Source: Burkholderiaceae bacterium (lineage in GTDB: Bacteria > Pseudomonadota > Gammaproteobacteria > Burkholderiales > Burkholderiaceae_B). Taken from it: DNA of 32,639 nt. A program made the position numbers and the translations under genes. The notes under the pieces were generated by a model. The model was not told the DNA's origin. It did no database searches and saw only the letters and a list, made by a program, of their open reading frames with translations. Positions 317 through 31,254 of this stretch are shown piece after piece; position 1 is the stretch's first letter, and the number at the start of each line of letters is the position of its first letter. The stretch lies in assembly GCA_023653055.1 (NCBI GenBank), contig JAMNXR010000023.1:1-32639 (forward strand). Reading direction: 5' to 3'.

Positions 317-345
317 TGGTGCGCCCGGCAGGATTCGAACCCACG
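317..345. other. Candidate attachment site of an integrated element (3' end of tRNA-Arg)
   Basis: Integrases of this class usually recombine within the T-arm and acceptor region of a tRNA, which restores an intact gene. Here the 3' part of tRNA-Arg faces an integrase gene less than 250 bases away. The second copy of the repeat that would prove the site lies outside the window, so this is inference from layout. Confidence 0.4.
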
Positions 346-393
346 ACCCCTTGGTTCGTAGCCAAGTACTCTATCCAACTGAGCTACGGGCGC
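317..393 (-). tRNA. tRNA-Arg (anticodon ACG)
   Basis: Read on the minus strand, the gene begins GCGCCCGTAGCTCAG (acceptor stem and D-arm start). The anticodon arm is CTTGG CTACGAA CCAAG, giving anticodon ACG. The T-arm carries GGTTCGAATCC, and the 3' side CGGGCGC pairs with the 5' acceptor strand. The discriminator A at 320 is followed by an encoded CCA at 319-317. All four arms fold. ACG (read as ICG after deamination by TadA) decodes CGU, CGC and CGA arginine codons. Its 3' end faces the integrase, as expected for an attachment site. Confidence 0.95.
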
Positions 394-460: not shown

Positions 461-1990
461 CTAGTTCTGGTACCTTGGGTTGGCGGTGAAGTATTTTTCT
501 AATAGAAAAAATCCGCCTTGCATCAACAGCGCCATCGCAGCGGCAGGAATCGCCCCTGCCAGTAAAAGCTGCGTGTTATTGAGGGCCAGGCCTTGCACAA
601 TGCGCTCACCAAAACCACCCGCACCAATAAACGCTGCGATCGTAGCGGTGCCCACACACAGCACGGCCGAAATTTTGACCCCCGACAAAATCATTCCACG
701 TGCCAAGGGTAATTCGATCAGCCAGAGACGCTGACCCGTTGTGATGCCAAGCGCTGTCGCAGCCTGACGCATCGATGCAGGGATCTCTTTTAGACCTGCA
801 TGTGTATTTTGGACGATCGGTAACAACGCATACAAAAACAAGGCCACAATCGCGGGGACGGTGCCGATGGTTCCAAGCACGGTAATTAAAAAAGCCAACA
901 CGGCGAGCGATGGAATCGTCTGCATCACACTCGTCACCGCTAACACGACCTGCCCAAGCCGAGGCGCATAAAAGCACACGATGCCTAGCGGTATGCCCAC
1001 TAAGGATGCCAAGACAAGGGCACTCAGTACTAAAAACAAATGCTGACCTGAGAGACGCCAAAAATCTGGTCCAAACAGGACCATCATAAAACTACTGGGT
1101 GGAGTGTCACTCAACGCCATGCCAGTCGCTGTACTTTGCAAAAACTGCTTGGCCACGGAAGGAAAACTTTGTTGATCAATTTCTGCGCGCGTATTGAGTG
1201 CGAGCATGGTGTGTTGCGATAGCGCGTTTTCAAGCTTTTGCAGCGCTTGCCACGCCGCGGGAAAACGTTCAGGTACATCCGCACGAAACAACAACAACGC
1301 CTCGTAGCTCGGGAAGAAATGACGATCGTCTTCGAGTGCAGTCAGTGCATAGCGCGACAGTTTGGAATCTGTCCCATACGCATCTACCAGATCAATTTGC
1401 TTGGCTGCGATGGCCTCATACGCGAGACCATGATCAAGACCCCGGGGTCGCAAAGCCTCCAATCCATACGCTTGCGCCAATCCCCGCCAGCCATCTGCAC
1501 GACCAATGAATTCGTGCGACAAACCTAGAGTCAAGTTGGGGTGCCGACTCAGATCAGAAATGGTTTGAATGTTGAGCGAGCGTGCCAGATCGCTGCGCAG
1601 CGCCAACACATAAGAATTATTAAAGCCAAGCAGCACGCCTGCCCGCAAACCCATCGGCGCGAGCCGGGCATTGATCTCCTCTAAAGAAAGCGCTTGCTCG
1701 GTCTTTAGTATTTCCCGCGCAATCGTACCGGTGTATTCGGGATACACATCGATTTCGCCGCTTTTGAGTGCGGCGAGCAAAATGCTGGTGTTACCCATTC
1801 CAGACTTGAGTTGGACGTTTGTATCACCCGCATCGCGCACGGTCTGTGCGATGATTTCACCCAGAATGAAAGACTCGGTGAAACGTTTAGACCCCACCAT
1901 AAAGGGCGCAGCGCTTGCAATCTGTGTCACCCACACACAGATCAATGCAAGCACTGCGGGAATCAACCTCAGGCGCAAGGTTCGCCACAT
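461..1990 (-). CDS. ABC transporter substrate-binding/permease fusion, glycine-betaine (OsmF/EgtU-like) family, linked to sen operon
   Basis: The 509-residue protein starts with a signal peptide (positively charged start, hydrophobic core at about 8-22, IASA before APF). A periplasmic domain of the glycine betaine/choline QAT family follows at about 30-290, with GSKRFTESFILGEI near 33-46 and VYPEYTGT near 82-89. A five- or six-helix permease at about 305-505 has the cytoplasmic EAA-type loop at 400-430 (MRQAATALG, then ELPLA). The start codon follows the SelD stop by five bases, so it is the third gene of the senB-selD operon. Related fused proteins import osmolytes, and EgtU imports ergothioneine, though EgtU has the opposite domain order. 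No ATPase subunit is in the window. Import of hercynine, ergothioneine or selenoneine is plausible but is inferred from context only. Confidence 0.85.
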   Translation of the reverse strand: MWRTLRLRLIPAVLALICVWVTQIASAAPFMVGSKRFTESFILGEIIAQTVRDAGDTNVQLKSGMGNTSILLAALKSGEIDVYPEYTGTIAREILKTEQALSLEEINARLAPMGLRAGVLLGFNNSYVLALRSDLARSLNIQTISDLSRHPNLTLGLSHEFIGRADGWRGLAQAYGLEALRPRGLDHGLAYEAIAAKQIDLVDAYGTDSKLSRYALTALEDDRHFFPSYEALLLFRADVPERFPAAWQALQKLENALSQHTMLALNTRAEIDQQSFPSVAKQFLQSTATGMALSDTPPSSFMMVLFGPDFWRLSGQHLFLVLSALVLASLVGIPLGIVCFYAPRLGQVVLAVTSVMQTIPSLAVLAFLITVLGTIGTVPAIVALFLYALLPIVQNTHAGLKEIPASMRQAATALGITTGQRLWLIELPLARGMILSGVKISAVLCVGTATIAAFIGAGGFGERIVQGLALNNTQLLLAGAIPAAAMALLMQGGFFLLEKYFTANPRYQN

Positions 1991-1995
1991 TGTGC

Positions 1996-3045
1996 TTAGA
2001 CCACCACGAGTCTTGCAGCCTGCTTGTCCACCACCTGACCAATCACGCTGGCATGACTAAAATCGTGTTTCTTGAAAATAGCGAGTACATCCTGTACGGA
2101 CTCTGGTGCACAGCACACCAGCAGGCCACCACTGGTCTGGGGATCCGTCATCAGCGTCTGACATTCAGCGGGTAAACCTGCTGCCATGCTCACGTCCTGC
2201 CCATAGCCGTCCCAATTACGACCTGAGGCGCCCGTCACCATACCAGCCTGAATCAAATCCACAACGCCTGGCAATAACGGTACGTCTGCCCATTTGATCT
2301 GTGCCGTCAGATCCGCGCCTCGTGCGATTTCTAGCGCATGACCCGCCAAGCCAAAACCTGTGACATCCGTTAACGCGTGTACCCCCTCAAGCTCAGCGAG
2401 CTCAGGTCCAGGTGTATTGAGCTTGGTCGTATTGTGAATCATTGAGGCATATCCCGCTGCGTCGAGCGCTTCTTTTTTTAACGCTGCGGACAAGATACCC
2501 ACGCCGACTGGTTTGCCTAAAATCATCACATCACCCTTGCGGGAACCATCGTTGCGTTTGACGCGATCCGGATGAACGAGACCCAGCACGACCAAGCCGT
2601 AAATCGCCTCGACAGAATCAATCGTGTGGCCACCCGCGATCGGGATACCCGCAGTTCGGCAAACCGAAGCTCCCCCTTCGAGCACTTTGCCAATTGTTTC
2701 GGTGGACAGCACATTGATCGGCATCCCGACAAGCGCCAAAGCCAAAATCGGACGTCCGCCCATGGCGTAGACGTCACTAATAGCATTGGTCGCCGCGATG
2801 CGACCAAACTCGTGTGGATCATCCACGATCGGCATAAAGAAATCTGTCGTGGCGATCAATGCCTGCTCATCATTTAAACGATAGACCGCCGCATCATCGG
2901 CTGTCGCGATGCCAACCATGAGTTCTTTGGGGATCGGCATCTGCAGCGTGCCCTTCAAAATCTCATGCAAGACGGCCGGAGCGATTTTGCATCCACAACC
3001 GCCACCATGGGACAGGGACGTGAGGCGTGGCTCGATTATTTTCAT
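1996..3045 (-). CDS. selD: Selenide, water dikinase SelD, acting as SenC in selenoneine synthesis
   Basis: SelD makes selenophosphate from selenide and ATP. This 349-residue protein has the full family pattern. HGGGCGCKIAP at 13-23 carries the catalytic Cys17 and Lys20 at the same numbering as E. coli SelD. TDFFMPIVDDP, DVYAMGGRPILAL, AGGHTI, TGFGLAGHA and DPQTSGGLL follow in family order. It starts 15 bases after the senB stop, with a good ribosome site (AAGGA), so it is translated from the senB transcript. No selA, selB or tRNA-Sec is visible in the window. The neighbours argue that its selenophosphate goes to SenB, as for SenC in described sen clusters. It may also serve selenocysteine or selenouridine synthesis elsewhere in the genome. 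Confidence 0.95.
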   Translation of the reverse strand: MKIIEPRLTSLSHGGGCGCKIAPAVLHEILKGTLQMPIPKELMVGIATADDAAVYRLNDEQALIATTDFFMPIVDDPHEFGRIAATNAISDVYAMGGRPILALALVGMPINVLSTETIGKVLEGGASVCRTAGIPIAGGHTIDSVEAIYGLVVLGLVHPDRVKRNDGSRKGDVMILGKPVGVGILSAALKKEALDAAGYASMIHNTTKLNTPGPELAELEGVHALTDVTGFGLAGHALEIARGADLTAQIKWADVPLLPGVVDLIQAGMVTGASGRNWDGYGQDVSMAAGLPAECQTLMTDPQTSGGLLVCCAPESVQDVLAIFKKHDFSHASVIGQVVDKQAARLVVV

Positions 3046-3060
3046 GAGATTCCTTGGGAG

Positions 3061-4041
3061 TTAAGACGAAATAGATTGTTCGACGATTGTAATCAAACGC
3101 TCCTGCTCTAGGGCAGGCGCAAATAATGGGGCCCGCAAGGCACACTGGCCCTCTAGCAAGGCATAAAAAGAGGGTTCGTTTCGCACCCGCAACAACAAGG
3201 CTGCCAAAGCATCCGCATTCTCAGTTGGAAAAAATCCTGCGTAATCCTTGCCCAACATACCTTCGTTTCCAGGAATGCGAGAGGCGATCACGGGCACACC
3301 ACTACAGATGGCCTCCATGACCACGTGTGCGCCCCCCTCCATCACACTGGGGTGCACCAGCACATGGGCGCGCTGAATCAATCGACGCGTGGCCTCGTGC
3401 GGACGTGCACCTAAAAAAGCATAATGTGGACAGACGGCAGCGGTCTCGTGCGCCGCGCGTGCGAGCGCGGGATCATGCCCGCCCCCGACGTGTTGCAGAT
3501 GAATATCCGTGTGCTCTGCAAGCAATTTTGCCGCATTAAAAAAGGTCTGCGGTGATTTTTCAGACCGTAAATGCCCCACCATGATCGCGCGCAGGTGACG
3601 CCTTGTTTTGGGCAACGTCTGCCGCGTTGCCGTGGATTGAAAGGCCACCACTGTTTTGGGCTGAACCGTCTCAGGCACCGCCTGCAAACCCTCGGTTTGC
3701 AGCACGACCAAAGTGTGCGCCCAACGCAGAGACTGCTGAGCCTCAGGATCGCTTTGGATATCGCGATACAGATCGGTGCCTGTGAGCACCACGACCAAGC
3801 CCCTCGTACCATGGCGCACGTGCCAGTCGGCAATCGAGGCGTAACTGCGGCGAGCATGGAGCGCAATCATCACATGATCCTGATCGCTACCATCCCATTG
3901 CTGGACAATCCTGACCCGACAAAAAGAACGGAGCATGCGTGCATAGCGCTGTGCCGTCTGCCAATTACCATTATTGGCTGCGGCCAACGCAGGGCTGACA
4001 ATGACGACATTCAAGCGTGTAGGGTTGGGTAAAATAGGCAT
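3061..4041 (-). CDS. senB: Selenosugar synthase SenB (GT4-like glycosyltransferase)
   Basis: The 326-residue protein has the two-domain fold of a GT4 glycosyltransferase. It starts with a Rossmann-like strand NVVIVSPAL at 11-19. GTDLYRDI lies at 88-95, GHLRSEKSP at 156-164 starts the C-terminal domain, and HPSVMEGGAHVVMEA at 230-244 with GNEGMLGKDY at 258-267 forms the nucleotide-sugar site. In described sen clusters SenB joins selenophosphate to UDP-GlcNAc to give a seleno-GlcNAc sugar, the selenium donor for SenA. The gene is first in the operon senB-selD-transporter and is divergent from senA with only 21 bases between starts. It lacks a clear Shine-Dalgarno sequence. A role in surface polysaccharide is unlikely, since no other polysaccharide gene is near. 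Confidence 0.9.
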   Translation of the reverse strand: MPILPNPTRLNVVIVSPALAAANNGNWQTAQRYARMLRSFCRVRIVQQWDGSDQDHVMIALHARRSYASIADWHVRHGTRGLVVVLTGTDLYRDIQSDPEAQQSLRWAHTLVVLQTEGLQAVPETVQPKTVVAFQSTATRQTLPKTRRHLRAIMVGHLRSEKSPQTFFNAAKLLAEHTDIHLQHVGGGHDPALARAAHETAAVCPHYAFLGARPHEATRRLIQRAHVLVHPSVMEGGAHVVMEAICSGVPVIASRIPGNEGMLGKDYAGFFPTENADALAALLLRVRNEPSFYALLEGQCALRAPLFAPALEQERLITIVEQSISS

Positions 4042-4062
4042 AACAAAAGCTTACCAAGAATC
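4030..4062 (+). promoter_or_regulatory. Very short divergent start region of senB and senA with possible senA -10 box
   Basis: The two start codons are separated by 21 bases (4042-4062). TAAAAT at 4030-4035, inside the senB 5' coding end, could be a -10 box for senA and would give a leader of about 20 bases. No good -35 is seen. The senB promoter must then lie inside senA codons. Neither gene has a strong ribosome site. Confidence 0.3.
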
Positions 4063-5247
4063 ATGCGACAAGCGGAAGTAAACATATTGACCCAAGGGCT
4101 TAAAACCCTCAGGGCTCAGACCCTGGAAGCCTTTGCTGACTATCAGCGAGCGGGGAAACTCCGCGTGCCTATTGAGGAGGCGTTTAATCCGCCACTTTGG
4201 GAGTTGGGTCATATTGCCTGGTTTCAAGAATACTGGGTAACGCGTAACCAGCAGCGTTCTGATGGCGTGCTGCAAGACATCCATCACCCTCGCCTGCCCT
4301 CAGTCATTGCCTCTGCAGATACGTGGTACGACAGTGCAACAGTCAAGCACGACAGTCGCTGGAGTTTGCCGCTGCTTCAAACGACAGACTGTCTTGCGTT
4401 TCTACAAAAAACGCTGGACATGACCCTAGGAAGTCTTGAAAAAGAATTAGAGGGTTCGCCCGCTTTATATTTTTACTGGCTTGCGCTGCAACATGAGGCC
4501 ATGCACCTCGAGGCGAGCGCCTATATGGCCCAAGCGCTGGAGATCCCTTTTGAGGCGACATGGGCACACGCACCTCAAGCGCGGCGATCAGACCGTCGGC
4601 AGACGATCACGAACATGCAACATTTCCAGGCTGTGCAGTGGTCGATGGGCACAGACTGGCAAACACTGACTGGACAGTCCTTTTGTTTTGATAACGAAGT
4701 CGGACAGCGCGACACCGCACTCGAGGCATTTTCGATCGCGCTGCGGCCTGTCACTTGGGCAGAGTATTTCAACTTTATCAGGGCGACCGGTCATCGTTTA
4801 CCGCTGTACGTCCGTAAAAAATCTATCGTTGCGCCACCTTCGTCATCTCCCACCGCACTACCCTATGAGATTAAAACCTTTGGGACTTGGCAGCCACTCA
4901 ATCCCGCAGCTTGCGCCATGCACATTTCATGGGACGACGCACAGGCCTATTGCACATGGGCAGGCTGCAGACTCCCTACTGAAGCCGAATGGGACATGGC
5001 CGCGAGGACGCAAGATGCTTTCGAATGGGGCGAAGTGTGGGAATGGACTGCGGACAATTTTGAGCCCTTCGAGGGCTTTCGCACGCACCCTTATGTCGAA
5101 TATTCCGCACCCTGGTTTGGTTCACGCAAAGTGTTACGCGGTGCCGCGTGGGTAACACATCCGTACTTACGCAACGTACATTACCGTAATTTCTTCACCC
5201 CCGAGCGCCGCGATATCTATGCGGGCTTTAGGGTCTGTGCTGCATAA
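4063..5247 (+). CDS. senA: Selenoneine synthase SenA (EgtB-like non-haem iron enzyme)
   Basis: SenA couples hercynine with the selenosugar made by SenB, forming the C-Se bond that leads to selenoneine. The 394-residue protein has an N-terminal DinB-type four-helix domain carrying the three iron-binding histidines: His50 in WELGHIAWF, and His144 and His148 in QHEAMHLE. This matches the EgtB three-His facial site. A C-terminal FGE-sulfatase-like domain follows, with FDNEVGQRDT, WDDAQAYCTWAGCRLPTEAE, VWEWTADNF, RKVLRGAAW and a final DIYAGFRVC. EgtB is the close alternative. SenA is preferred because senB and selD are directly adjacent and no EgtA, EgtC or EgtE gene is present. It is convergent with egtD, which supplies hercynine. 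Confidence 0.9.
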   Translation: MRQAEVNILTQGLKTLRAQTLEAFADYQRAGKLRVPIEEAFNPPLWELGHIAWFQEYWVTRNQQRSDGVLQDIHHPRLPSVIASADTWYDSATVKHDSRWSLPLLQTTDCLAFLQKTLDMTLGSLEKELEGSPALYFYWLALQHEAMHLEASAYMAQALEIPFEATWAHAPQARRSDRRQTITNMQHFQAVQWSMGTDWQTLTGQSFCFDNEVGQRDTALEAFSIALRPVTWAEYFNFIRATGHRLPLYVRKKSIVAPPSSSPTALPYEIKTFGTWQPLNPAACAMHISWDDAQAYCTWAGCRLPTEAEWDMAARTQDAFEWGEVWEWTADNFEPFEGFRTHPYVEYSAPWFGSRKVLRGAAWVTHPYLRNVHYRNFFTPERRDIYAGFRVCAA

Positions 5248-5298
5248 GCGTCGGTGTTGACCGGGCCAGTAACACTGAGGATTTAAACGCAAGTCTGA

Positions 5299-6276
5299 TT
5301 AATACGCCCAAAACAAAGCATATTGCGCCTGCGGATCTGTCCAGTACTGCGTGTGCGCAAACCCTGCTTTTTTTAACAACGCTGTAAAGTTTGGGATGGT
5401 CCACTTGTAGGAATTCTCTGTGTGAATCGCCTCACCAGCCCGAAAAGTACGCGAACGCTCACCCCAGCTTATCGTAACGGCGCGACGCGCCACCAAGTGC
5501 ATTTCAATACGCGATTCAGCAACGTTAAAAAGCGCCTTGTGCTGCCAGTCGCAGACGTCAAAATCTGTCCCCAACAAAGTATTGATATGCCTCAAGACAT
5601 TGAGATTAAAGGCTGCCGTCACGCCAAGATCATCGTCATACGCACGCTCGAGTATCTCAACAGACTTCACCAGATCAATCCCGATCAACAAACCAGAGCC
5701 CGCCTGACCTTGCTGGCACACGCTGGCGACACGATTTAAAAATCCAAGCGATTCTGTGGGAGTGAAATTACCTAAACTCGAACCAGGGTAAAAAGCGAAA
5801 ATGGGGTGCTGCGTAAGCTGGGTGGCGAGCGCCGCAGGAAAGTTGAGTGACGCAGAAAAATCCATCCCAACGCCCACCATCTTGACGCTCGGATGGCTAC
5901 GTTGAAGGTTGATCAGTGTATCGGTCAAGTAATCCAAGGAAATATCGACCGCCACATAGACGCCTGGCGCAGTCCCTGAAAAAAGGCTCGCCGCCTTTTG
6001 ACAGCTCCCTGCCCCTAAATCAAGCCATGCAGCTTGTTGAGGAATACATTGATGAATCTCCGAACCATGCTCAGCGAAAATACTCGCTTCGGTGCGGGTT
6101 GGATAGTACTCAGGCAGATGGGTAATCGCCTCGAACAAGGTCGAACCCAAGGCGTTGTAGAAATACTTTGGAGAGCAATGCGCATGCGTTGCGGTCAGGC
6201 CTTTTTCTAATTCTGCCGCTACCACGCGAGGATCAAGGTTAAACGTCAAATGAAAACTCGGGGTCTGTTGGGTCAT
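5299..6276 (-). CDS. egtD: L-histidine N-alpha-methyltransferase EgtD
   Basis: EgtD uses three SAM molecules to convert histidine into hercynine, the shared precursor of ergothioneine and selenoneine. The 325-residue protein carries the family hallmark SPKYFYNALGSTLFEAIT directly followed by HLPEYYPTRTE (about 35-63), a SAM-binding LDLGAGSCQK at 85-94, and VAVDIS at 108-113. It ends in YALFWAY. The start was set at the ATG at 6276 because GGAG lies eight bases upstream and this gives the normal family length; a 12-codon longer reading frame exists. It is convergent with senA, 51 bases apart, with no strong terminator between them. With senA, senB and selD it makes the locus self-sufficient for selenoneine. 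Confidence 0.95.
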   Translation of the reverse strand: MTQQTPSFHLTFNLDPRVVAAELEKGLTATHAHCSPKYFYNALGSTLFEAITHLPEYYPTRTEASIFAEHGSEIHQCIPQQAAWLDLGAGSCQKAASLFSGTAPGVYVAVDISLDYLTDTLINLQRSHPSVKMVGVGMDFSASLNFPAALATQLTQHPIFAFYPGSSLGNFTPTESLGFLNRVASVCQQGQAGSGLLIGIDLVKSVEILERAYDDDLGVTAAFNLNVLRHINTLLGTDFDVCDWQHKALFNVAESRIEMHLVARRAVTISWGERSRTFRAGEAIHTENSYKWTIPNFTALLKKAGFAHTQYWTDPQAQYALFWAY

Positions 6277-6395
6277 GCACACGCTCCGGACAACGCACAA
6301 TTTACGGCTCAAACCTTAACACGCCCACATTCAGCACGCATGCAAACACAGGGGCTTGAGGCATAATCACCTATAAACGTTAAGTACTCCGCCTT

Positions 6396-7601
6396 ATGAC
6401 AACAACGCACACAGCTAGTAAAGACCGTAACCCCTGGGGAGTTTTTCTGATTTTTCTCCGCTTGGGACTGACTTCCTTTGGTGGTCCGGTGGCACATTTA
6501 GGATTTTTTCGCGAGGAGTTCGTGACGCGCCGCCAATGGCTGAGCGATCGTAGTTATGCAGACCTCGTGGCACTCTGCCAGTTCCTGCCTGGCCCCGCGA
6601 GCAGTCAGGTCGGTATCGCGCTAGGGTTTTCACGCGCGGGTTATCTCGGTGCGTTTGCCGCTTGGGCGGGATTTACCCTGCCCTCAGCCATAGCGCTGAT
6701 TGTCTTTGCTATTGGGCTTTCAAGCGTTGGCAATAGCTTTTCAACTGGCGCACTACAGGGTCTGAAAATCGTTGCCGTCGCTGTGGTGGCACAAGCGGTC
6801 TGGGGTATGGCGCGCAGCTTATGCACGGATGTCACGCGCGTCACCATCATGATGCTGGCAACGTGTGCTGTACTGCTCATCCCCTCTGTCTGGTCACAAG
6901 TGGGTGTCATTATCTTGGCTGGGATCGCCGGCATCGTTCTGTTCAAACCCGCTCAACTGCCCCCCCATGATCCGCTTCCTATCAAGATTTCTCAACGCGT
7001 GGGCGCCTTCTGGCTCGCACTGTTCATTATTTTATTAATTGCTTTACCACTCGCCTCGGAAGCATTTACTAATCAGACACTTGCATTGGTCGATGCATTT
7101 TATCGCGCGGGTGCCTTGGTCTTTGGTGGCGGTCATGTTGTGCTGCCCTTGCTTCAGGCCGAGGTGGTGCCGACGGGCTGGGTGGATGAAGCGGTCTTTC
7201 TCGCGGGCTATGGCGCGACCCAAGCCATGCCAGGACCGCTGTTTACCTTTGCCGCCTTTTTGGGTGCCTCAATGACCGCCTCACCAAGCGGTTGGACGGG
7301 GGGAATCATTGCACTGATCGCGATTTTTATCCCTTCGTTTTTATTGGTCGTGGGTGCGCTGCCCTTTTGGGAATCGCTGCGCCAAAACCTCCGGACGCAA
7401 GCGGCCCTGGGTGGTATCAATGCCTCGGTGGTGGGTTTACTACTGGCCGCACTGTATCAGCCGGTTTGGACAAGCGCGATTGTGAGTGCGCAAGACTTTG
7501 CCTTGGGATTGCTGGCTTTAGTTGCCTTGATGTTCTGGAAACTCCCCCCATGGTTGGTCGTGATCGCCGGTGGTTTGGCGGGGTGGTTACTCAGCCATTA
7601 G
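6396..7601 (+). CDS. chrA: Chromate transporter ChrA (CHR family, two-domain)
   Basis: The 401-residue integral membrane protein consists of two homologous CHR domains. The first has FGGPVAHLGFFREEF at 28-42, FLPGPASSQ near 63-71 and AGFTLPS near 91-97. The second has FGGGHVVLPLL at 243-253 and TQAMPGPLFTFAAF some 35 residues later. The long CHR family exports chromate across the inner membrane, with sulfate as a structural analogue. It is divergent from egtD with about 119 bases between starts, so the two may share a control region. Its place beside a selenium pathway is notable because selenate is also a tetrahedral oxyanion, but selenium transport by this family is not established. No chrB regulator is present. 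Confidence 0.92.
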   Translation: MTTTHTASKDRNPWGVFLIFLRLGLTSFGGPVAHLGFFREEFVTRRQWLSDRSYADLVALCQFLPGPASSQVGIALGFSRAGYLGAFAAWAGFTLPSAIALIVFAIGLSSVGNSFSTGALQGLKIVAVAVVAQAVWGMARSLCTDVTRVTIMMLATCAVLLIPSVWSQVGVIILAGIAGIVLFKPAQLPPHDPLPIKISQRVGAFWLALFIILLIALPLASEAFTNQTLALVDAFYRAGALVFGGGHVVLPLLQAEVVPTGWVDEAVFLAGYGATQAMPGPLFTFAAFLGASMTASPSGWTGGIIALIAIFIPSFLLVVGALPFWESLRQNLRTQAALGGINASVVGLLLAALYQPVWTSAIVSAQDFALGLLALVALMFWKLPPWLVVIAGGLAGWLLSH

Positions 7602-7680: not shown

Positions 7681-9468
7681 TCACGCAAACTGTAGTTTCG
7701 CCAGTCTCGCATACAGCCCGCCCTGCTCAATGAGCTCTGCGTGCTGGCCGTGCTCGACCACCACCCCATCCTCAAGCACGATAATACGATCCGCTTGCAA
7801 GACCGTCGCTAAACGGTGAGCAATCGTCAGCGATGTTCGACCGGGGAGCACGCTATCCAAAGCGAGCTGAACTTCACGCTCGGACTCGGCATCCAACGCA
7901 CTGGTTGCCTCATCTAACAACAGGAGGGGTGGATTTTTCAAGATCGCACGTGCAATCGAAATGCGTTGTTTTTGCCCCCCCGACAACCGCACACCGCGCT
8001 CACCTAAAAAGCTGTCGTATCCTTGCGGTAATGCTGAAATAAAGCCATGCGCATGCGCAGTTTTAGCCGCTGCAACGACCTCCTCATCCGACGCATCGAG
8101 CCTGCCATAACGAATATTTTCCAGTGCGCTCGCCGCAAAAATGACAGGCTCTTGAGGCACGATCCCAATCATGTCTCTCAAATCACTGACGGGCCATTGT
8201 GCGATATCACGACCAAACACCTCGATCTGTCCTGCCGTGGGCTGATGAAAACGCAACAACATTGCAAACAAGGTGCTCTTGCCTGCGCCGGAGGGGCCCA
8301 CCAAGGCATACCGTGCACCCTGGGGTACAGAAAACGATAGGTGGTTCATCGCCAGAAAATCAGGACGTGAAGGATAAGAAAATGTCACATCTTTAAACAC
8401 CGCAGCCTCTAACTGACCTGCTGGGTGGAAAGGCTGCAATTCGGACCGGTTTGCCATGGGTATATCAACCGTACCATCCTGATGCTCGACCTCAGCAACC
8501 ACCGAAGGTTCGGCCTGCATCAACTCCACCAGCCGTTCCATCGCACCGGCCGCGCGCTGCAAATCGCCCCATGTCTCCGACAACGCACCAATCGAGCCTG
8601 CGATGAATACCGCGTACAACACAAACTGAGTCAACTCGCCAAGAGAAATCGCACCGGTTGTCACCTGTCGTGCACCCATCCACAGCACAAACACAATCAC
8701 AGCAAAAGCCATCATGATCGCTGTCGCAGTCAGAAAAGACCGCATTGCGATACGTTTTTTAGCCTCAGAAAATGCGATCTCTACCGCAGTGTCAAAACGC
8801 TTTTGCTCATAAGGCTCTCGCACAAATGCCTGAACAGTCGTCATCGCATTCAAGACCTCGCCTGCCATCGCACTCGTATTGGCGACCTTGTCTTGACTCG
8901 CACGCGACATTTTGCGCACCCGTCGACTCAAGGCCCAAAGCGGCAACACAATCGCGAGGAGCAAGACAATCATCACGCCGGCTAACCAGGCACTGGTGAC
9001 CAACATCATCGTCATCCCGCCGAGCAACATCACGAGACTGCGCAGCGCAATCGAGATGCTTGACCCCACCAAGGTCTGAACCAAGGTCGTGTCACTGGTC
9101 ATGCGCGACAGCACTTCGCCGGTCTGCAGCGTTTCAAAATATGCGGGACTTTGGCGCAACACGTTTTCAAAGACGCGCTTGCGAATATCGGCGACCACGC
9201 GCTCACCCAGCCATGACATGACATAAAACCGACTTGCTGTCGTCAACCCCAGCACGATTGCCAAAAGCAACAGATTGATAAACTTTAAATCAATGGCATC
9301 ACTGGTTAATCCTGTATCCACCAGATCCCGAAAGGCCAAGGGCACAGCCAGCGTGGCACCCGCCGCTAACAGCAGAAAGAGCGCCGCGAGGGACCATTGT
9401 GTTTTATACCGAGAGAGCACCCGGTAATCCCGCAACCAGCGGGTGAGACTGCTGAGTTTTGTCGCCAT
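7681..9468 (-). CDS. ABC half-transporter, permease-ATPase fusion (MsbA-like exporter family)
   Basis: The 595-residue protein has a six-helix type I exporter domain at about 20-320, followed by an ATPase domain. Walker A GPSGAGKST is at 391-399, the signature LSGGQKQR at 495-502, Walker B LLLLDEATSALD at 515-526 and the H-loop His at 551. The fusion layout requires a dimer. Members export lipids, lipid A, peptides or drugs, and the substrate cannot be read from the sequence. It starts 39 bases after the attH stop on the same strand, so it may be read as the last gene of the att operon. It converges with chrA. Confidence 0.9.
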   Translation of the reverse strand: MATKLSSLTRWLRDYRVLSRYKTQWSLAALFLLLAAGATLAVPLAFRDLVDTGLTSDAIDLKFINLLLLAIVLGLTTASRFYVMSWLGERVVADIRKRVFENVLRQSPAYFETLQTGEVLSRMTSDTTLVQTLVGSSISIALRSLVMLLGGMTMMLVTSAWLAGVMIVLLLAIVLPLWALSRRVRKMSRASQDKVANTSAMAGEVLNAMTTVQAFVREPYEQKRFDTAVEIAFSEAKKRIAMRSFLTATAIMMAFAVIVFVLWMGARQVTTGAISLGELTQFVLYAVFIAGSIGALSETWGDLQRAAGAMERLVELMQAEPSVVAEVEHQDGTVDIPMANRSELQPFHPAGQLEAAVFKDVTFSYPSRPDFLAMNHLSFSVPQGARYALVGPSGAGKSTLFAMLLRFHQPTAGQIEVFGRDIAQWPVSDLRDMIGIVPQEPVIFAASALENIRYGRLDASDEEVVAAAKTAHAHGFISALPQGYDSFLGERGVRLSGGQKQRISIARAILKNPPLLLLDEATSALDAESEREVQLALDSVLPGRTSLTIAHRLATVLQADRIIVLEDGVVVEHGQHAELIEQGGLYARLAKLQFA

Positions 9469-10623: not shown

Positions 10624-13166
10624 CACCAATCCTCCCGCAAAGACAATGCCAATCTCTCATTATTCAAATTTCGCTTGGATGCCCACACCGCCGCAACAAT
10701 CCCCAGCAACACGATGCAAAGCATGAGGAGCACGAGTGCCACGACTGGCACGCTTGTCTGCATTGTCCAGTGAAAAGACTGGGGATTGACCCGATGAATC
10801 AACACCTGGCTCATGAGCAACCCCAACACCGTACCCCAGCATGCGGCCAATCCAAGCAACATCCCTGACTCAAGCGTGATCCACTGTGTACGCTGAGAGG
10901 CAGATTGTCCTAAGTGTTGCATCAGCGCAAACTCTTTTTGTCGAAGTAGCGCCTGACCTGCAAAACCTGCTGCAACAGAAAAAATCGCGACAAGTAAAGC
11001 TGCGACCTCAAGTGCATAGGTCAAGGCAAAGCTACGATCAAAAATCGTCAAGGACAATGCTCTGAGGTCTGCAGAACTTTTAAACTGAAGGGCCTCGAAT
11101 TGAGGAAACTGAGCACGCAACCTCGCAAGCACTTCAGTCGAACGCGCGTCGGGTGAAAGCCAAAGCGCCAGATCTGTTCGTCGCAAATCATTTGTCAGAC
11201 TTTGGTAGGTGGAGAGATCCATCACAATCGATCCATGCTGTCTGCCGTAATCACGAAACACACCGGCCACCCAAACAGGCAAATGACCTCCTGTCTGACC
11301 CTCATCATTTACCATCGGTAAGGTATGTATCTGACCAGGCTCCCAGCCATATAAATCTGTCATGGCCTCTGACACAAATACGTCTGGCAACAGAGACGCT
11401 GAACCTGGAACTTGAACAGACACGCCTCCCGTGAGCGGTAACACCTGAGCGGCACGTGTCGTAGAAACCGGTCTCGCAATCAGAACAACCTCTGGTCGAT
11501 CCGGTCTAAATAAAATTGGTTTTTGCAGGGTGAATTCCAGTCTTGCAATGCCTGGTGTTGATACAATGGCCTGTGCCAAACTCGGATCCTTCATGCGTGC
11601 TTGATTCAAATCAGAACGGTTCAAACTCGCGTACAAATCCGCAGGCAAAACCTGATCAAGCCACTGGGTGACAGAGTCTCGGAAACTTGCCACCATCACC
11701 ACCATCGCGACTGTCAGTGCAAGTGCCGCGACCACACCCGAAATAAGTCCTGCAGCACTCGCGGGCGCCTGTGCCAAGCGCCAAACCGCGAACGTCCAAG
11801 ACGAGGCTAAGGTTTGACGACGCAATAAATCATTTGCTAAAAATGAAAAGCATTGATGCACCAAGGAGGGTGTGAGCGCCAACCCAGCAAATAAAAGAAA
11901 TGCAATGGATAAATAGGCCGCAATCGGCAATCCACCTATTGGAGGCATGAATGCCAAGATCAAACTTGTCAGGGCTAAGCCCAATGCGACACGGTGATGC
12001 AAGACTGGCTTAAGCACACGCTCCCCAGCCCCCGCTCTGAGCTGAGCCACTGGCGAACCTACCGTCGCGGCTTTAGCTGGAAAGTAGCCCGCCAACACAC
12101 CAACGGCCAACGACAATAACCAGAAACCGAAAAGAAATATCCCATCGACCTCGAGCGGCGGGATAGAAGAGGAAAAATACCCCCCACCGAGATCACCGCC
12201 AACGACGCGCAAGAGCGCAGAAGCTATCAACAAACCCAAACCAATCCCCACCATGCCACCAAGCGCAGCAACGATTAAAGCCTGTGTAATAACTAAACCG
12301 AATATCCAGGCACGCGTAGCGCCCAACACACTCAGAAGCGCGAGTTGTGATTGCTGACGTAGGACAGAAAAGCTGATGGTTGTAAACACCAGAAACGCAC
12401 CGGTAAACAAGGCGACCAAGGCCAGTACGCTCAGGTTGACACGATAGGCGCGAGAAAGATTTGACATGCGACGATCGCGATCGTCTGCGGTGACAAGCTT
12501 TAGACCGAGATTCAGCGCGTCAATGTCCAAGGCAAGCTCTTTTAAACTACGACCCTCTGTGAGTTGAATATCCAACCGACTCAACTTACCCAGACTATCA
12601 AGCCGCCATTGGGCAACGCCTAAGTCCATCACGGCCAAGCTCTGTCCTGCCGCGCCCGGCACCACGCCTGTCACCTTGAACACCTCTTCTTTGCCAACAA
12701 GAGAGAGAGGTAAGGTATCGCCCACTGCTACATCAAGTTGTTTTAATGCCGCAGCAGAGAGGAAAATTGCATCTTTAGAAAACAGGGCTTGCCGCTGGTC
12801 GCCCTCGAGCGAAGGTATCAGTGCAGGTGTGACACGTGCTGCCTGAAAAATGTCTAACCCGAGCACGCGCAACGACGGTGTAGACCTCTCCAGTACAGGA
12901 CTCACTGCGCGTATACCCAGTTCTGCCTGACGCGCCACAATCTCATCAAAAAGCGCGTCACGCATCTCGCCCGAGGGCATCACTAACTGCGCCGATGCTT
13001 GGCCATTTACTAAATCAATCGCTCGTCCAAACTCACCCAGTGCGGAACGATTAACCGTATGAATCGCCACCGCTAAGGCGATGCCTATCGCAACCGTCAA
13101 GCCAGCAATCAGCCAACGGCCCGGTTGCGCACGGAAAGCAGCGGAGAGCAGCCAATAAAACAGCAT
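10623..13166 (-). CDS. FtsX-type ABC permease, AttF/AttG-like
   Basis: The 847-residue membrane protein has the MacB/LolC-like ABC3 permease design. One helix lies near the start (WLIAGLTVAIGIALAVAI), followed by a large periplasmic domain. A first FtsX block at about 240-400 includes QQSQLALLSVLGATRAWI, and more helices follow. After a second periplasmic domain comes a C-terminal FtsX block with RQKEFALMQHLGQSASQ and three helices. It therefore carries two permease units in one chain. The start is set at ATG 13166, overlapping the ATPase stop as TGATG; a longer reading frame overlaps the ATPase gene and has no membrane logic. With the ATPase and AttH it forms an AttEFGH-type system, probably extracting a hydrophobic molecule from the inner membrane. 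Confidence 0.87.
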   Translation of the reverse strand: MLFYWLLSAAFRAQPGRWLIAGLTVAIGIALAVAIHTVNRSALGEFGRAIDLVNGQASAQLVMPSGEMRDALFDEIVARQAELGIRAVSPVLERSTPSLRVLGLDIFQAARVTPALIPSLEGDQRQALFSKDAIFLSAAALKQLDVAVGDTLPLSLVGKEEVFKVTGVVPGAAGQSLAVMDLGVAQWRLDSLGKLSRLDIQLTEGRSLKELALDIDALNLGLKLVTADDRDRRMSNLSRAYRVNLSVLALVALFTGAFLVFTTISFSVLRQQSQLALLSVLGATRAWIFGLVITQALIVAALGGMVGIGLGLLIASALLRVVGGDLGGGYFSSSIPPLEVDGIFLFGFWLLSLAVGVLAGYFPAKAATVGSPVAQLRAGAGERVLKPVLHHRVALGLALTSLILAFMPPIGGLPIAAYLSIAFLLFAGLALTPSLVHQCFSFLANDLLRRQTLASSWTFAVWRLAQAPASAAGLISGVVAALALTVAMVVMVASFRDSVTQWLDQVLPADLYASLNRSDLNQARMKDPSLAQAIVSTPGIARLEFTLQKPILFRPDRPEVVLIARPVSTTRAAQVLPLTGGVSVQVPGSASLLPDVFVSEAMTDLYGWEPGQIHTLPMVNDEGQTGGHLPVWVAGVFRDYGRQHGSIVMDLSTYQSLTNDLRRTDLALWLSPDARSTEVLARLRAQFPQFEALQFKSSADLRALSLTIFDRSFALTYALEVAALLVAIFSVAAGFAGQALLRQKEFALMQHLGQSASQRTQWITLESGMLLGLAACWGTVLGLLMSQVLIHRVNPQSFHWTMQTSVPVVALVLLMLCIVLLGIVAAVWASKRNLNNERLALSLREDW

Positions 13167-15864: not shown

Positions 15865-17190
15865 CTAACGCACCGTAGGCAACTCATCCCAGCGCGTCGT
15901 GTATCGCGGTGAACGATTTTCATTACGCATCGCCCAGTGTTGTGTAAAACCGCTCACACCCGAGCGCACCGTTCCACGACCATGATCTCGATTGATCATA
16001 TCGAGTGCTGTCATCAACTTGGTCGAGCGTTGCGTCACCACGAGATTGTCAAAAATACTCGCCTGCCGCGCGTGCTTATCCGACAGCAGCGTTAGCATCA
16101 CACCGGCTTTTTTGTAGCGATACCCCGAGCGATACATCACCTCAAGACCCGCAAGCGCAGCCGCCGTGAGCGTGAGCGTATCGTCCGTCGGCTCAGACAT
16201 CGGTACAGTGAGACCTGCGTTGTATTGTTCATCCTTGTTAAACCGATTGGTCTGGATAAACACATACACAGCACCTGCCACCGACCGCTGATGCCGGAGC
16301 TTTTCAGCCGCACGCGACAGGTAACTCGCAAGCGACTCACGCAACTCCTCGATGGTTTCAACTGGACGCCCAAAACTGCGCGAGGACATGATTTGTTGTT
16401 TAGGCTGCGCGATATCGTCGAGCGCTAGACAGGAAATACCCCGCAACTCATTACAGGTGCGCTCCATCACGACACCAAAGTGCCTGCGCATTTCTTTAGG
16501 TGAGGCATTGCGTAGATCCAACACCGTATGAATCCCCATCACCTCCAGACGTCTTGCGATGCGGCCTCCCACACCCCAGACTTCACCCACCTCAATACCA
16601 CCCATCCAGCGCACCCGCTCCGGGCGCGGAATCACGTGCAAATCGCACACGCCCTCAAACTGAGGATTTTTCTTGGCTAAATGATTGGCAAACTTCGCAA
16701 GTGTTTTAGTCGGCCCGACGCCCACGCAAACAGGCAGCCCCGTCCACTGTTTGATGCGCTCGCGCATCTGCTGACCCATGGCAACCGCGCCTCCGTACAG
16801 AGGCGCAACTGTTTCTATCCGTAAAAATGACTCATCAATACTGTAGACCTCGGTATCAGGTGCAAAGTCCCGCAAAATCTGCACGACCCGATTACTCATG
16901 TCCCCATAGAGCGTGTAATTAGAGGAAAACGCCAGGATGCCTTGCTCACGCGCGAGGTCTTTCATCTTGAACCAAGGCGTGCCCATTTTGACACCTAGTG
17001 CTTTGACCTCATTGCTGCGCGCGACCGCACAGCCATCATTGTTAGACAAGACGACAATAGGCGTGCCTTCAAGCTTGGGGTTGAACACACGTTCACAAGA
17101 CACATAGAAATTATTGACGTCTACGAGTGCGAACTGTGGTGCAAGTGTAGACATGCTTGGCGCGATGGACGCGTCAGGTGTAGCGGTCAT
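15865..17190 (-). CDS. umuC: DNA polymerase V catalytic subunit UmuC
   Basis: This is a Y-family translesion polymerase subunit of 441 residues, close to the usual size of about 420. The N-terminal block [19 protein letters not shown] holds the first metal-binding Asp. [18 protein letters not shown] and the catalytic YSIDESFL follow, then helix-hairpin-helix elements ([19 protein letters not shown]) and the little-finger domain with SRSFG. The C-terminal [17 protein letters not shown] is typical of UmuC. It starts at ATG 17190, overlapping the umuD stop as TGATG; a GTG three bases upstream is also possible. With cleaved UmuD it copies damaged DNA in the SOS response. Control is through the LexA box upstream of umuD. 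Confidence 0.95.
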
Positions 17191-17609
17191 CACCCACCCC
17201 GCGCAGAATAACGACGCACTACGCCCACCACGACACCCCAGACCAATAACTCACTACCGTCTTTGAACTCGATCGGCGAATAGGCAGGATTTTCAGCGCG
17301 CAGCTCCACGCGTCCGCGGTGCTTGAACAGCCGCTTAAGCGTGTAATCGCCGTCCACCACCGCCACCACAATATCGCGATGCTTGGGAGTCATCGCACGA
17401 TCCACAATGACCTTGTCCCCCTCCTCGATACTGGCGCCCGACATCGAGTCCCCTTTAACCGTAAACAGAAAAGTCGCGGGTTTATTGCGTACCAGGTAGT
17501 CGTTGAGATCGAGTCCGACCTCAATGTAATCGGCCGCAGGCGAAGGAAAGCCCGCGCTGATGCGATGCGCCAAGAGTGGCAAATCGCGCGCAACGGGCTC
17601 TAACGCCAT
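17190..17609 (-). CDS. umuD: SOS-response peptidase UmuD
   Basis: UmuD cleaves itself on RecA filaments, and the shortened form joins UmuC as polymerase V. The protein has the cleavage site ISAG followed by [10 protein letters not shown] (Ala-Gly instead of the Cys-Gly of E. coli), the nucleophile serine in VKGDSM and the catalytic lysine in [29 protein letters not shown] closes the fold. The start at ATG 17609 gives 139 residues, the length of E. coli UmuD. Upstream in-frame starts (ATG 17681, GTG 17687) would add 24-26 residues but lie inside the LexA box and at the predicted transcription start. No start has a good ribosome site, so the choice is not certain. Confidence 0.93.
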
Positions 17610-17673
17610 CTCGACAGGCGTTTGACTTAAGTTTGACTCCGCTTTGGAGGGCGAAGATTGGTTCGTAAATATA

Positions 17674-17689
17674 CTGTACATAAACACAG
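17674..17689 (-). promoter_or_regulatory. LexA (SOS) box of umuDC
   Basis: The sequence CTGTACATAAACACAG fits the LexA consensus CTGT-N8-ACAG exactly, and it is extended by TA on both sides. It closely resembles the umuDC operator of E. coli. LexA bound here would cover the -10 box and transcription start, which explains SOS control of umuDC. Confidence 0.93.
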
Positions 17690-29650: not shown

Positions 29651-30994
29651 TTAAATACGAGTCCGTCCGAGCAACTCCGACCGGCCGATCACCGCTCGTT
29701 CATCTTTCAATTGCTCTGGAGCAGAAAAGCCTGCTTCGATAATCGCTTCGCTTAACCCTTTAAATTGGATTTGCGATTTGGAGCTCCTCACTGAAGTCAT
29801 TCCTTCGTTCCAAGCATGGACCATATTATTGGCAACCGTTTGCCAACGCGACTCATTCTTTGCCGCTTGGATGACTTCTCTGCCTACCTCTACCGCTGAC
29901 TGACACAACTGTTCCACCATCTCCGCATAATGCTTAGGTGATATTCCCAAACGAGACTTAAAGAAACGCTCCAAATTTTTACCCGCGACCCAACTTTGAC
30001 GTCCGTCGATCGGCAGCGCGGGAGGATTATTGACATACCGAGGATAAGCCTGTGTGGTCACAAGATCGTAGACCGGCGTGTAAGCAACATCGTTAAATCC
30101 CTTGTAAAACAGCGCAATATTTTTGGCATGACAATCGGCATTTCTCACCACGTAGTTCGTCAGCATGTGCCACGCGAACTGCACGAGTTGCGCTTGAGTG
30201 ATGGCGTTTGGCAGGTACGCACGCGTCGCACCCAACACGCGCTCAGTCGTAGTCGCATACTTTTCGTGTGGCGGGAGTCCCAGCAAGCCGCATGCATCTT
30301 CAACCCCATGCGTGGCTAAACCTTGCGCATCAACATCAAAACGATCAACGATCAACACGCCTCCATCCTCAGACATACGTGTTTTAGCAACCGGCACGAC
30401 ATTTAAGCGCTCCAGCACGCGCATGGTGTAGAACTCGTTAAAACCTAAATAAGGTGTATTGTCGTTAGAGCCCTTGATTATGTGACGACTAGTACGTAAC
30501 GTCGGCTTTCCTGATAGATAGCTAGGCGCGTCTACATCATTCTCAGGCGCGAGAAACTTGGGCACCATGCCAGAGATAGACGCGCGAGCATACCGACGCA
30601 CTAAACTCGCAAAATGCTGCGTGGTGTTGTCGGCTTTTAATAATGTTTCAACCTGAAGCGGCTCCAGATCTCCAGCAGACTCGCTCCCTTCTGGGGTGAC
30701 GGTGACCCGCCCGATTCCCATTCCTCCAACTACTGCTAACAAAGATAGATCAGTGCCATCTAATAAGGGTCCGAACTCTTCGCGGATGATGCCGAGTAAA
30801 TAACCTTCGGGTAAATTTTGACGAAAAAATGGATGTAGGTCGCGCGGCCAACGCCAAGCTTCTGCGCGTACCGGCATTGTCAGACTGACGAACTCGCTCT
30901 GATCAGTTTCAGGTAAATAACTGAGGACATATTCGTCACGCTCCCGATAAAGTTTGGCGACAACATTTCCACGCACGCGAACATCAAGCCTCAC
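29651..30994 (-). CDS. hipA: HipA-family serine/threonine kinase toxin
   Basis: The 447-residue protein carries the HipA N-terminal domain (HPFFRQNLPEGYLLG near 54-68) and kinase core. ASISGMVPKFLAP at 138-150 is the P-loop-like region that holds the autophosphorylated serine in E. coli HipA. RNADCHAKNIALFY at 284-297 supplies catalytic Asp287 and Asn292, and YDL at 309-311 supplies metal-binding Asp310. E. coli HipA phosphorylates glutamyl-tRNA synthetase and drives persistence. The family is broad, so the target here is open. The start overlaps the hipB stop by four bases (ATGA). All key residues are present, so it looks active. Confidence 0.93.
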   Translation of the reverse strand: MRLDVRVRGNVVAKLYRERDEYVLSYLPETDQSEFVSLTMPVRAEAWRWPRDLHPFFRQNLPEGYLLGIIREEFGPLLDGTDLSLLAVVGGMGIGRVTVTPEGSESAGDLEPLQVETLLKADNTTQHFASLVRRYARASISGMVPKFLAPENDVDAPSYLSGKPTLRTSRHIIKGSNDNTPYLGFNEFYTMRVLERLNVVPVAKTRMSEDGGVLIVDRFDVDAQGLATHGVEDACGLLGLPPHEKYATTTERVLGATRAYLPNAITQAQLVQFAWHMLTNYVVRNADCHAKNIALFYKGFNDVAYTPVYDLVTTQAYPRYVNNPPALPIDGRQSWVAGKNLERFFKSRLGISPKHYAEMVEQLCQSAVEVGREVIQAAKNESRWQTVANNMVHAWNEGMTSVRSSKSQIQFKGLSEAIIEAGFSAPEQLKDERAVIGRSELLGRTRI

Positions 30995-31254
30995 CTTTGA
31001 TCATCCTGGCGCTGCTCGACAAGGATATCCTCGATCGTGCGTGTGAAGCCCTGTTTAACAGGCTTAAGATCGAACCCTGTAGCCTCTAGCAGTCTCAACA
31101 GCGCTGAAACGCTCATATCTCCTTTGGCGAGCGTCTCCATACGTGCGACCGTTGCGCGCGAGACTCCCGCCCTCCGGGCGAGCATCTCTTGACTCAAGCC
31201 GGCGTCTTGGCGAGCACTACGCAATAGGTCTGCAATATCTGCAAGCGTTGTCAT
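30991..31254 (-). CDS. hipB: HipB-like XRE antitoxin
   Basis: The 87-residue protein has a helix-turn-helix at about 5-60: LADIADLLRSARQDAGLSQE, then MLARRAGVSRATVARMETLA. A GDMSVSALLRLLEATGF turn leads to a C-terminal tail that may contact HipA. It precedes hipA with an ATGA overlap, the same order as E. coli hipBA. It should bind HipA and repress the operon from the site over the promoter at 31294-31322. Confidence 0.9.
   Translation of the reverse strand: MTTLADIADLLRSARQDAGLSQEMLARRAGVSRATVARMETLAKGDMSVSALLRLLEATGFDLKPVKQGFTRTIEDILVEQRQDDQR

Follow-up and report, generated by a model that had tools for sequence, protein, structure and literature searches.

The 32,639-nucleotide contig JAMNXR010000023.1 of a Burkholderiaceae bacterium related to freshwater Zwartia (assembly GCA_023653055.1; 2.84 Mb in 30 contigs, 95% complete), analyzed over its whole length and called the window here, carries a block of six open and intact reading frames at positions 461 to 7601 that is best supported as a complete selenoneine pathway including egtD, with an importer subunit gene at one end. 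The frames are those of a 509-amino-acid ATP-binding cassette (ABC) importer subunit in which an OpuAC binding domain is fused to a permease, termed the fusion below (461 to 1990, minus strand; Pfam OpuAC, 173 bits; BPD_transp_1, 77 bits); selD, a selenophosphate synthetase gene in the role of senC (1996 to 3045, minus strand; TIGR00476, 416 bits against a cut-off of 125; PRK00943, 533 against 299); senB, for a selenosugar synthase (3061 to 4041, minus strand; TIGR04348, 430 bits against 300); senA, for a selenoneine synthase, divergent from senB (4063 to 5247, plus strand; NF041186, 414.7 bits); egtD, for the histidine N-methyltransferase that makes hercynine (5299 to 6312, minus strand; TIGR03438, 341 bits against 291); and chrA, for a chromate-type efflux transporter that is adjacent but weakly linked to the sen genes (6396 to 7601, plus strand; TIGR00937, 359 bits against 172). 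An earlier note on this DNA had placed these six genes intact and side by side at these positions, and open frames, coordinates, and family scores all agree with it; the residues that it named, Cys17 and Lys20 of SelD and the three histidines of SenA (His50, His144, and His148), are present. SenB has Lys162 and the EGGAHV motif at residues 235 to 240, matches solved SenB structures (E ~1e-104), and has as its nearest named records a Burkholderiaceae metagenome-assembled genome (MAG), Zwartia vadi, a second MAG, and Zwartia panacis. In the fusion, OpuAC spans residues 32 to 285 and BPD_transp_1 residues 332 to 490, the latter with a loop, SMRQAATALGITTGQRLWLIELPLA, that we take to be of the EAA type. 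Only 5 nt separate selD from the fusion gene, and the two are presumably cotranscribed. The divergent genes senA and senB have start codons only 21 nt apart (4041 to 4063), so the promoter of each should be located within the other gene.

The window SenA scores 5 bits below the curated NF041186 cut-off of 420, and the EgtB model gives it only 193 bits against a cut-off of 360. Its best matches among solved structures are the SenA entries 8ryz and 8k5i (E ~1e-89). In a tree of 43 rows, drawn from 84 distinct SenA-like open reading frames (ORFs), it is one of 34 SenA rows, the row of Variovorax sp. PCZ-1 being another, and nine EgtB-like rows split from this clade with support of 100/100. The six EgtB-like proteins that were scored, four of them from the window's genus, all exceed the EgtB cut-off (479 to 554 bits). 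The phylogenetic check for a grouping of SenA with EgtB, which the earlier note had called for, thus set the two apart, and on tree placement and the scores of the EgtB-like proteins we rejected EgtB as the identity of this protein.

The route from SenC/SelD through SenB and SenA to selenoneine is already published (PMC9814287), also in further papers (the portions consulted of PMC10702425, PMC10891094, and PMC10903977), and selenoneine has been detected in microorganisms (PMC9814287); the core of the window locus would be a fresh member of this known pathway. EgtD would trimethylate histidine to hercynine, SelD would supply selenophosphate, SenB would combine selenophosphate and UDP-GlcNAc into a selenosugar, and SenA would couple hercynine with the selenosugar, selenoneine being released afterwards. 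The same reactions are expected of SenA, SenB, and SelD/SenC in the senABC genes of Variovorax paradoxus (PMC9814287 and the same portions of the other three papers), from which the window differs in having an importer subunit gene directly downstream of selD and in its SelD being the only genome copy.

The rest of the genome fits a locus with few competing outlets. SelD has one match over the cut-off (a second, at 58 bits, is below it), EgtD has a single match, SelU is encoded on contig C17, and SelA has no match in this genome. Because SelD is the sole copy and SelU is present, SelD is probably shared with SelU and not dedicated to the sen genes. No second SenA/EgtB-like protein exceeded 46 bits in the genome in a search with the SenA model, which gives EgtB-like proteins of the genus ~220 to 385 bits and did not cover other ergothioneine routes such as EanB; EgtB and SelA were likewise not found in the near relatives G251 (99% complete) and G267 (100%). 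With no EgtB found, hercynine would have no visible fate besides selenoneine, and with no SelA found either, selenium would be channeled into selenoneine and, by way of SelU, into tRNA selenouridine. The earlier claim of a full selenoneine pathway including egtD therefore holds up, as family scores and residues agree, SenA stands apart from EgtB, and the search of the genome gave no EgtB. Elsewhere in the genus an EgtB-like gene adjoins egtD in 8 of 32 genomes (G239, G240, with an EgtB-EgtD pair, G245, G255, G257, G259, where it is partial, G261, and G264). Among the 26 genus genomes with senB, EgtD has no match in G250 and G256 and only a partial one in G247, G253, and G260 (fragmented or incomplete assemblies); hercynine uptake may take the place of egtD in genomes without an EgtD match.

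To place the neighbors of the core, we surveyed the 80 best among 457 confirmed SenB loci in named genomes (tblastn, E ≤ 1e-10, weak matches counted, ≤9 kb from senB); the counts are lower bounds, as only 49 of the 80 extend for 5 kb in both directions, and the loci overlap with the separately fetched genomes of the window's genus. Genes near senB encode SenA in 63 loci, EgtD in 52, SelD in 40, and an oxidoreductase-SelD fusion in 38, three of the last being weak matches (27 to 36%) in loci that also have SelD. With egtD so usual a companion, its description in the earlier note as an extension of the core fell away, and we discarded the idea that it is an addition special to the window locus. 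The substrate-binding protein (SBP) of the putative selenate ABC importer TIGR04553 is another usual neighbor (35 of the best 80 loci); the window's genome encodes it on a separate contig, C21 (366 bits). ChrA is near senB in only 5 of the 80 loci, four from the genus and the unrelated L302, and chrA adjoins the sen genes in 5 of the 26 genus genomes with senB (the window, L050, L051, L052, and L054; some contigs are too short), so ChrA could not be upheld as an extension either. OpuAC-type importers are near senB in 21 of the 80 loci; 19 of them are fusions, all from the window's genus, and the other two (L245 and L246) are split importers.

The same survey showed some variation in the core itself. 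Of the 63 loci with a nearby SenA, 59 have senA and senB in head-to-head orientation, 19 to 181 nt apart as measured from tblastn ends; in the other four, SenA is 6.3 kb away (two loci) or in the opposite orientation (two loci). The window's genus has a stand-alone SelD adjoining senB, unlike the oxidoreductase-SelD fusions elsewhere, of which L078:10666-12951 is an example (a SenC made of a pyridine-nucleotide oxidoreductase fused to SelD; TIGR03169 plus TIGR00476). Limnobacter-type loci have, at the place of senA and divergent from senB, a gene for a methyltransferase-domain protein of ~400 to 515 amino acids (e.g., L078:8314-9609, minus strand; also L071 to L077, L079, L080, L088, L259, L270, L272, L279, L282, and L288, some of these loci coming from the same genomes), with no SenA-like ORF within the fetched stretches, to which the search was confined. 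L081 has both this protein and SenA. It is possible that Limnobacter-type loci lead to another selenium product. In one Limnobacter-type genome (G148:C2:74545-75532), SenB is in two overlapping frames and may be broken or misassembled.

The fusion is a regular companion of the sen genes within the window's genus, of which 32 genomes were sampled (senB counted when over its cut-off, the fusion when matched at E ≤ 1e-40). Each was found in 26 genomes; 25 have both, one has senB alone (G253), one has the fusion alone (G239), and five have neither. The fusion is therefore present in 25 of 26 genomes with senB versus 1 of 6 without it (Fisher P = 1.7e-4, uncorrected for kinship). With the window's own neighborhood excluded, selD and the fusion gene stand side by side behind senB in 20 of 25 neighborhoods, and the gene block is thus no chance arrangement. 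The remaining five comprise one without the fusion (L051), one that ends at selD (L056), one that is cut off (L068, from G256), and two (L066 and L067) with an ATPase-fusion-senA-selD layout in place of the main senB-selD-fusion layout; another contig of G256 (L132) reads ATPase-fusion-selD. The senB-selD-fusion order recurs in the cultured Zwartia vadi (L228), Zwartia panacis (L230), and Zwartia hollandica (L238). The sen-linked fusion groups, together with L106 and L313, form one side of a branch with support of only 57/91 (trees of 51 and 47 of 63 sequences, near-identical rows being left out and, from the second, also the long row L128), and the fusion may have been recruited into sen loci once or twice. 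L119, from G239, carries the fusion together with an EgtD-EgtB pair and lacks senB; its selD is on the same contig, ~10 kb away from the fusion. In Limnohabitans sp. MMS-10A-178 (L245:12059-15948), an OpuAC-type importer of split form, accompanied by its own ATPase, adjoins, and is convergent with, the selD of a sen locus, and as the SenA of this locus branches inside the Zwartia group, gene transfer is suggested.

Across the order, the fusion (E ≤ 1e-100) occurs in 76 of 399 genomes and 38 of 159 genera. Among the 29 best fusion loci, all outside the family, an ATPase gene lies directly upstream in 11 (46 to 51% identical to the L066 ATPase), an MsbA-like exporter gene lies directly upstream in 8, all from family f10, and 10 have neither on the fusion strand within the ≤1.5 kb fetched. 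SelD, SenA, SenB, EgtD, and EgtB have no match in any of 20 wider neighborhoods outside the family, though in one of these (L360) the selenium importer is encoded 6 kb away; likewise, none of the eight fusions from family genera without senB (L120 to L127) has sen, selD, or egtD genes or an ATPase match within ~9 kb. The two-gene importer is thus one common form, and fusions without a neighboring ATPase occur also without sen genes. The window itself encodes an MsbA-related exporter 5.7 kb from the fusion (7681 to 9468, minus strand), and exporters 47 to 50% identical to it have the fusion directly downstream in L314, L319, L321, L323, L326, L329, L335, and L338.

For the ligand pocket, the window fusion was compared with Lmo1422 of Listeria, ProX of Archaeoglobus, and the structure 8dp6, in the numbering of SpEgtU, and 63 fusions were aligned. 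According to the portion of PMC9732360 consulted, Lmo1422 is an EgtU-type protein, the ergothioneine determinants of EgtU are G244, F293, and Y337 in contrast to the F/Y/F set of ProX, the SpEgtU binding domain is C-terminal (residues 232 to 503), EgtU as studied discriminates strongly against hercynine, and selenoneine binding by EgtU is stated as not yet tested. The window fusion has R, F, Y, and F at the places of I243, G244, F293, and Y337, so that the three determinants are replaced by F37, Y86, and F123, a pattern common to it and Archaeoglobus ProX (1sw2). Ten equivalents of residues at the EgtU ligand site are kept (K242, T275, T296, N339, Y341, E375, R379, D381, Y419, and Y443), and the aromatic cage and carboxylate residues K35, Y86, Y127, E160, R164, Y205, and Y229 are identical in all 63 fusions. 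The fusion is thus like EgtU/EgtUV (same portion of PMC9732360) in joining a related binding domain to a permease and in keeping most cage and carboxylate ligands, but the binding domain comes first and the permease second, the reverse of the EgtU order, and no ATPase gene is adjacent; it differs from ProX and the OpuB, OpuC, and OpuF osmoprotectant importers in being fused and in having no ATPase gene of its own here. An AlphaFold2 model of the fusion had a mean pLDDT of 58 and was set aside. Judged by its residues, the pocket is glycine-betaine-like and lacks the ergothioneine determinants of EgtU. The structure 8dp6, labeled an osmoprotection protein, has S for G244 and Y and F at the places of F293 and Y337; we take it to be the EgtU domain of Helicobacter pylori, and because it also has Y and F there, the fusion may be a weaker ergothioneine binder. 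Apart from the places of N338 and N339, the window's pocket is common to 62 of the 63 fusions, copies outside sen loci included, and there is accordingly no sign that the fusion is specific for selenium or selenoneine. N339 versus D339 in the cage looked like a mark of sen-linked fusions among the copies of the family but was dropped, as N339 is common outside sen loci. In the neighborhood comparison proposed earlier, therefore, the fusion proved a real, conserved companion of sen within the genus while chrA was rare, and the fusion as an extension of the pathway stood only in that sense, being a common order-wide importer subunit with an unchanged pocket.

Taken together, it is quite likely that the locus makes selenoneine and that the fusion is an importer subunit for small quaternary-ammonium betaines, widespread in the order, which this genus has recruited to a place next to the sen genes and which here would have to rely on an ATPase from another locus. 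The locus would then join an established pathway to an importer of putative ligand that one lineage has recruited, the importer itself being ordinary and its location unusual. No paper joining sen genes with an OpuAC-type importer was found in the literature searched, which did not cover the original 2022 pathway paper.

Several points weigh against this reading. The SenA score is, as noted, just under its cut-off; the portion of PMC11448449 consulted describes selenoneine production via SenA/SenB as not shown in vivo; and at 95% completeness the absences from the genome may be gaps. No importer ATPase gene lies near the fusion within 461 to 7601, and downstream of it the 460 nt to the contig start hold only a tRNA-Arg (acg) gene (317 to 393, minus strand; ARAGORN). 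The ABC genes elsewhere on the contig are of other classes (the MsbA-related exporter at 7681 and a LolD-like ATPase at 13166), and no orphan ATPase partner was seen among the eight best candidates in the genome (ProV model), most of which, by eye, adjoin other transport genes. Among the other genera of the family, 19 genomes have senB over its cut-off and 11 have a fusion match (8 true fusions and 3 split importers), with zero overlap, so the association is that of one lineage. Even within the genus, G253 has sen genes without the fusion, G239 has the fusion without senB, and G256 (86% complete) has senB and the fusion with no SenA match, the only such case among the 26 genomes with senB.

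It is conceivable, if somewhat doubtful, that the fusion and ChrA are mere neighbors without a selenium role, the fusion being osmoprotective and placed here by an accident of descent. Its frequency in the order, the absence of sen, selD, and egtD from the 20 wide neighborhoods outside the family and the eight in family genera without senB, the restriction of the association to one genus, and the rarity of ChrA would all fit. However, the fusion is kept beside selD throughout a genus whose SenA proteins are in many cases just 51 to 58% identical to that of the window, and it is kept in two layouts; its spacing from selD is a few nucleotides or an overlap of 1 nt (L057 and L065).

We regard it as unlikely that the fusion is an EgtU-like importer of selenoneine, ergothioneine, or hercynine and that the locus combines synthesis with salvage of selenoneine or its precursor. 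Membership in the superfamily of EgtU (9egh, E 5e-35), the ten conserved ligand-site equivalents, retention with selD or senA in two layouts, the residues of 8dp6, and the split importer with ATPase adjoining selD in L245 and L246 (detected by tblastn using the fusion and the L066 ATPase as queries) speak for such a role; the glycine-betaine pattern of ProX at the determinants with R for I243, the opposite domain order, the identical pocket of fusions outside sen loci, and the discrimination of the studied EgtU against hercynine speak against it. A salvage role for the recruited importer, with a selenium- or histidine-betaine as its substrate (hercynine, selenoneine, or a selenium-containing betaine analogue), in a selenoneine-making, ergothioneine-less host is likewise a tentative proposal that we think improbable. 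Least plausible by far is that SenA is actually an EgtB and the product of the locus ergothioneine, since the common fold and the NF041186 score slightly under the cut-off stand against the low EgtB score, the place of the protein in the SenA clade, the adjoining senB, and the position of the EgtB-like genes of the genus, which sit away from senB and adjoin an egtD.

Other features of the window include a umuDC-like error-prone polymerase pair (15865 to 17687, minus strand) and a HipA-like kinase gene (29651 to 30994, minus strand), upstream of which a short frame (~30990 to 31250, minus strand) resembles, by eye, an Xre/HipB regulator.

For a locus that likely makes selenoneine beside a recruited betaine importer subunit, the genus ties an importer to the selenoneine pathway, which bears on the uptake, release, and use of selenoneine beyond its synthesis. 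With no EgtB and no SelA found, the organism offers a clean background with few other uses for hercynine and selenium, and the cultured Zwartia species with the senB-selD-fusion order make the role of the importer directly testable. If the importer does salvage a selenium- or histidine-betaine, the sen operon of this genus would be a combined synthesis-and-salvage module, whose permease has given up its own ATPase.

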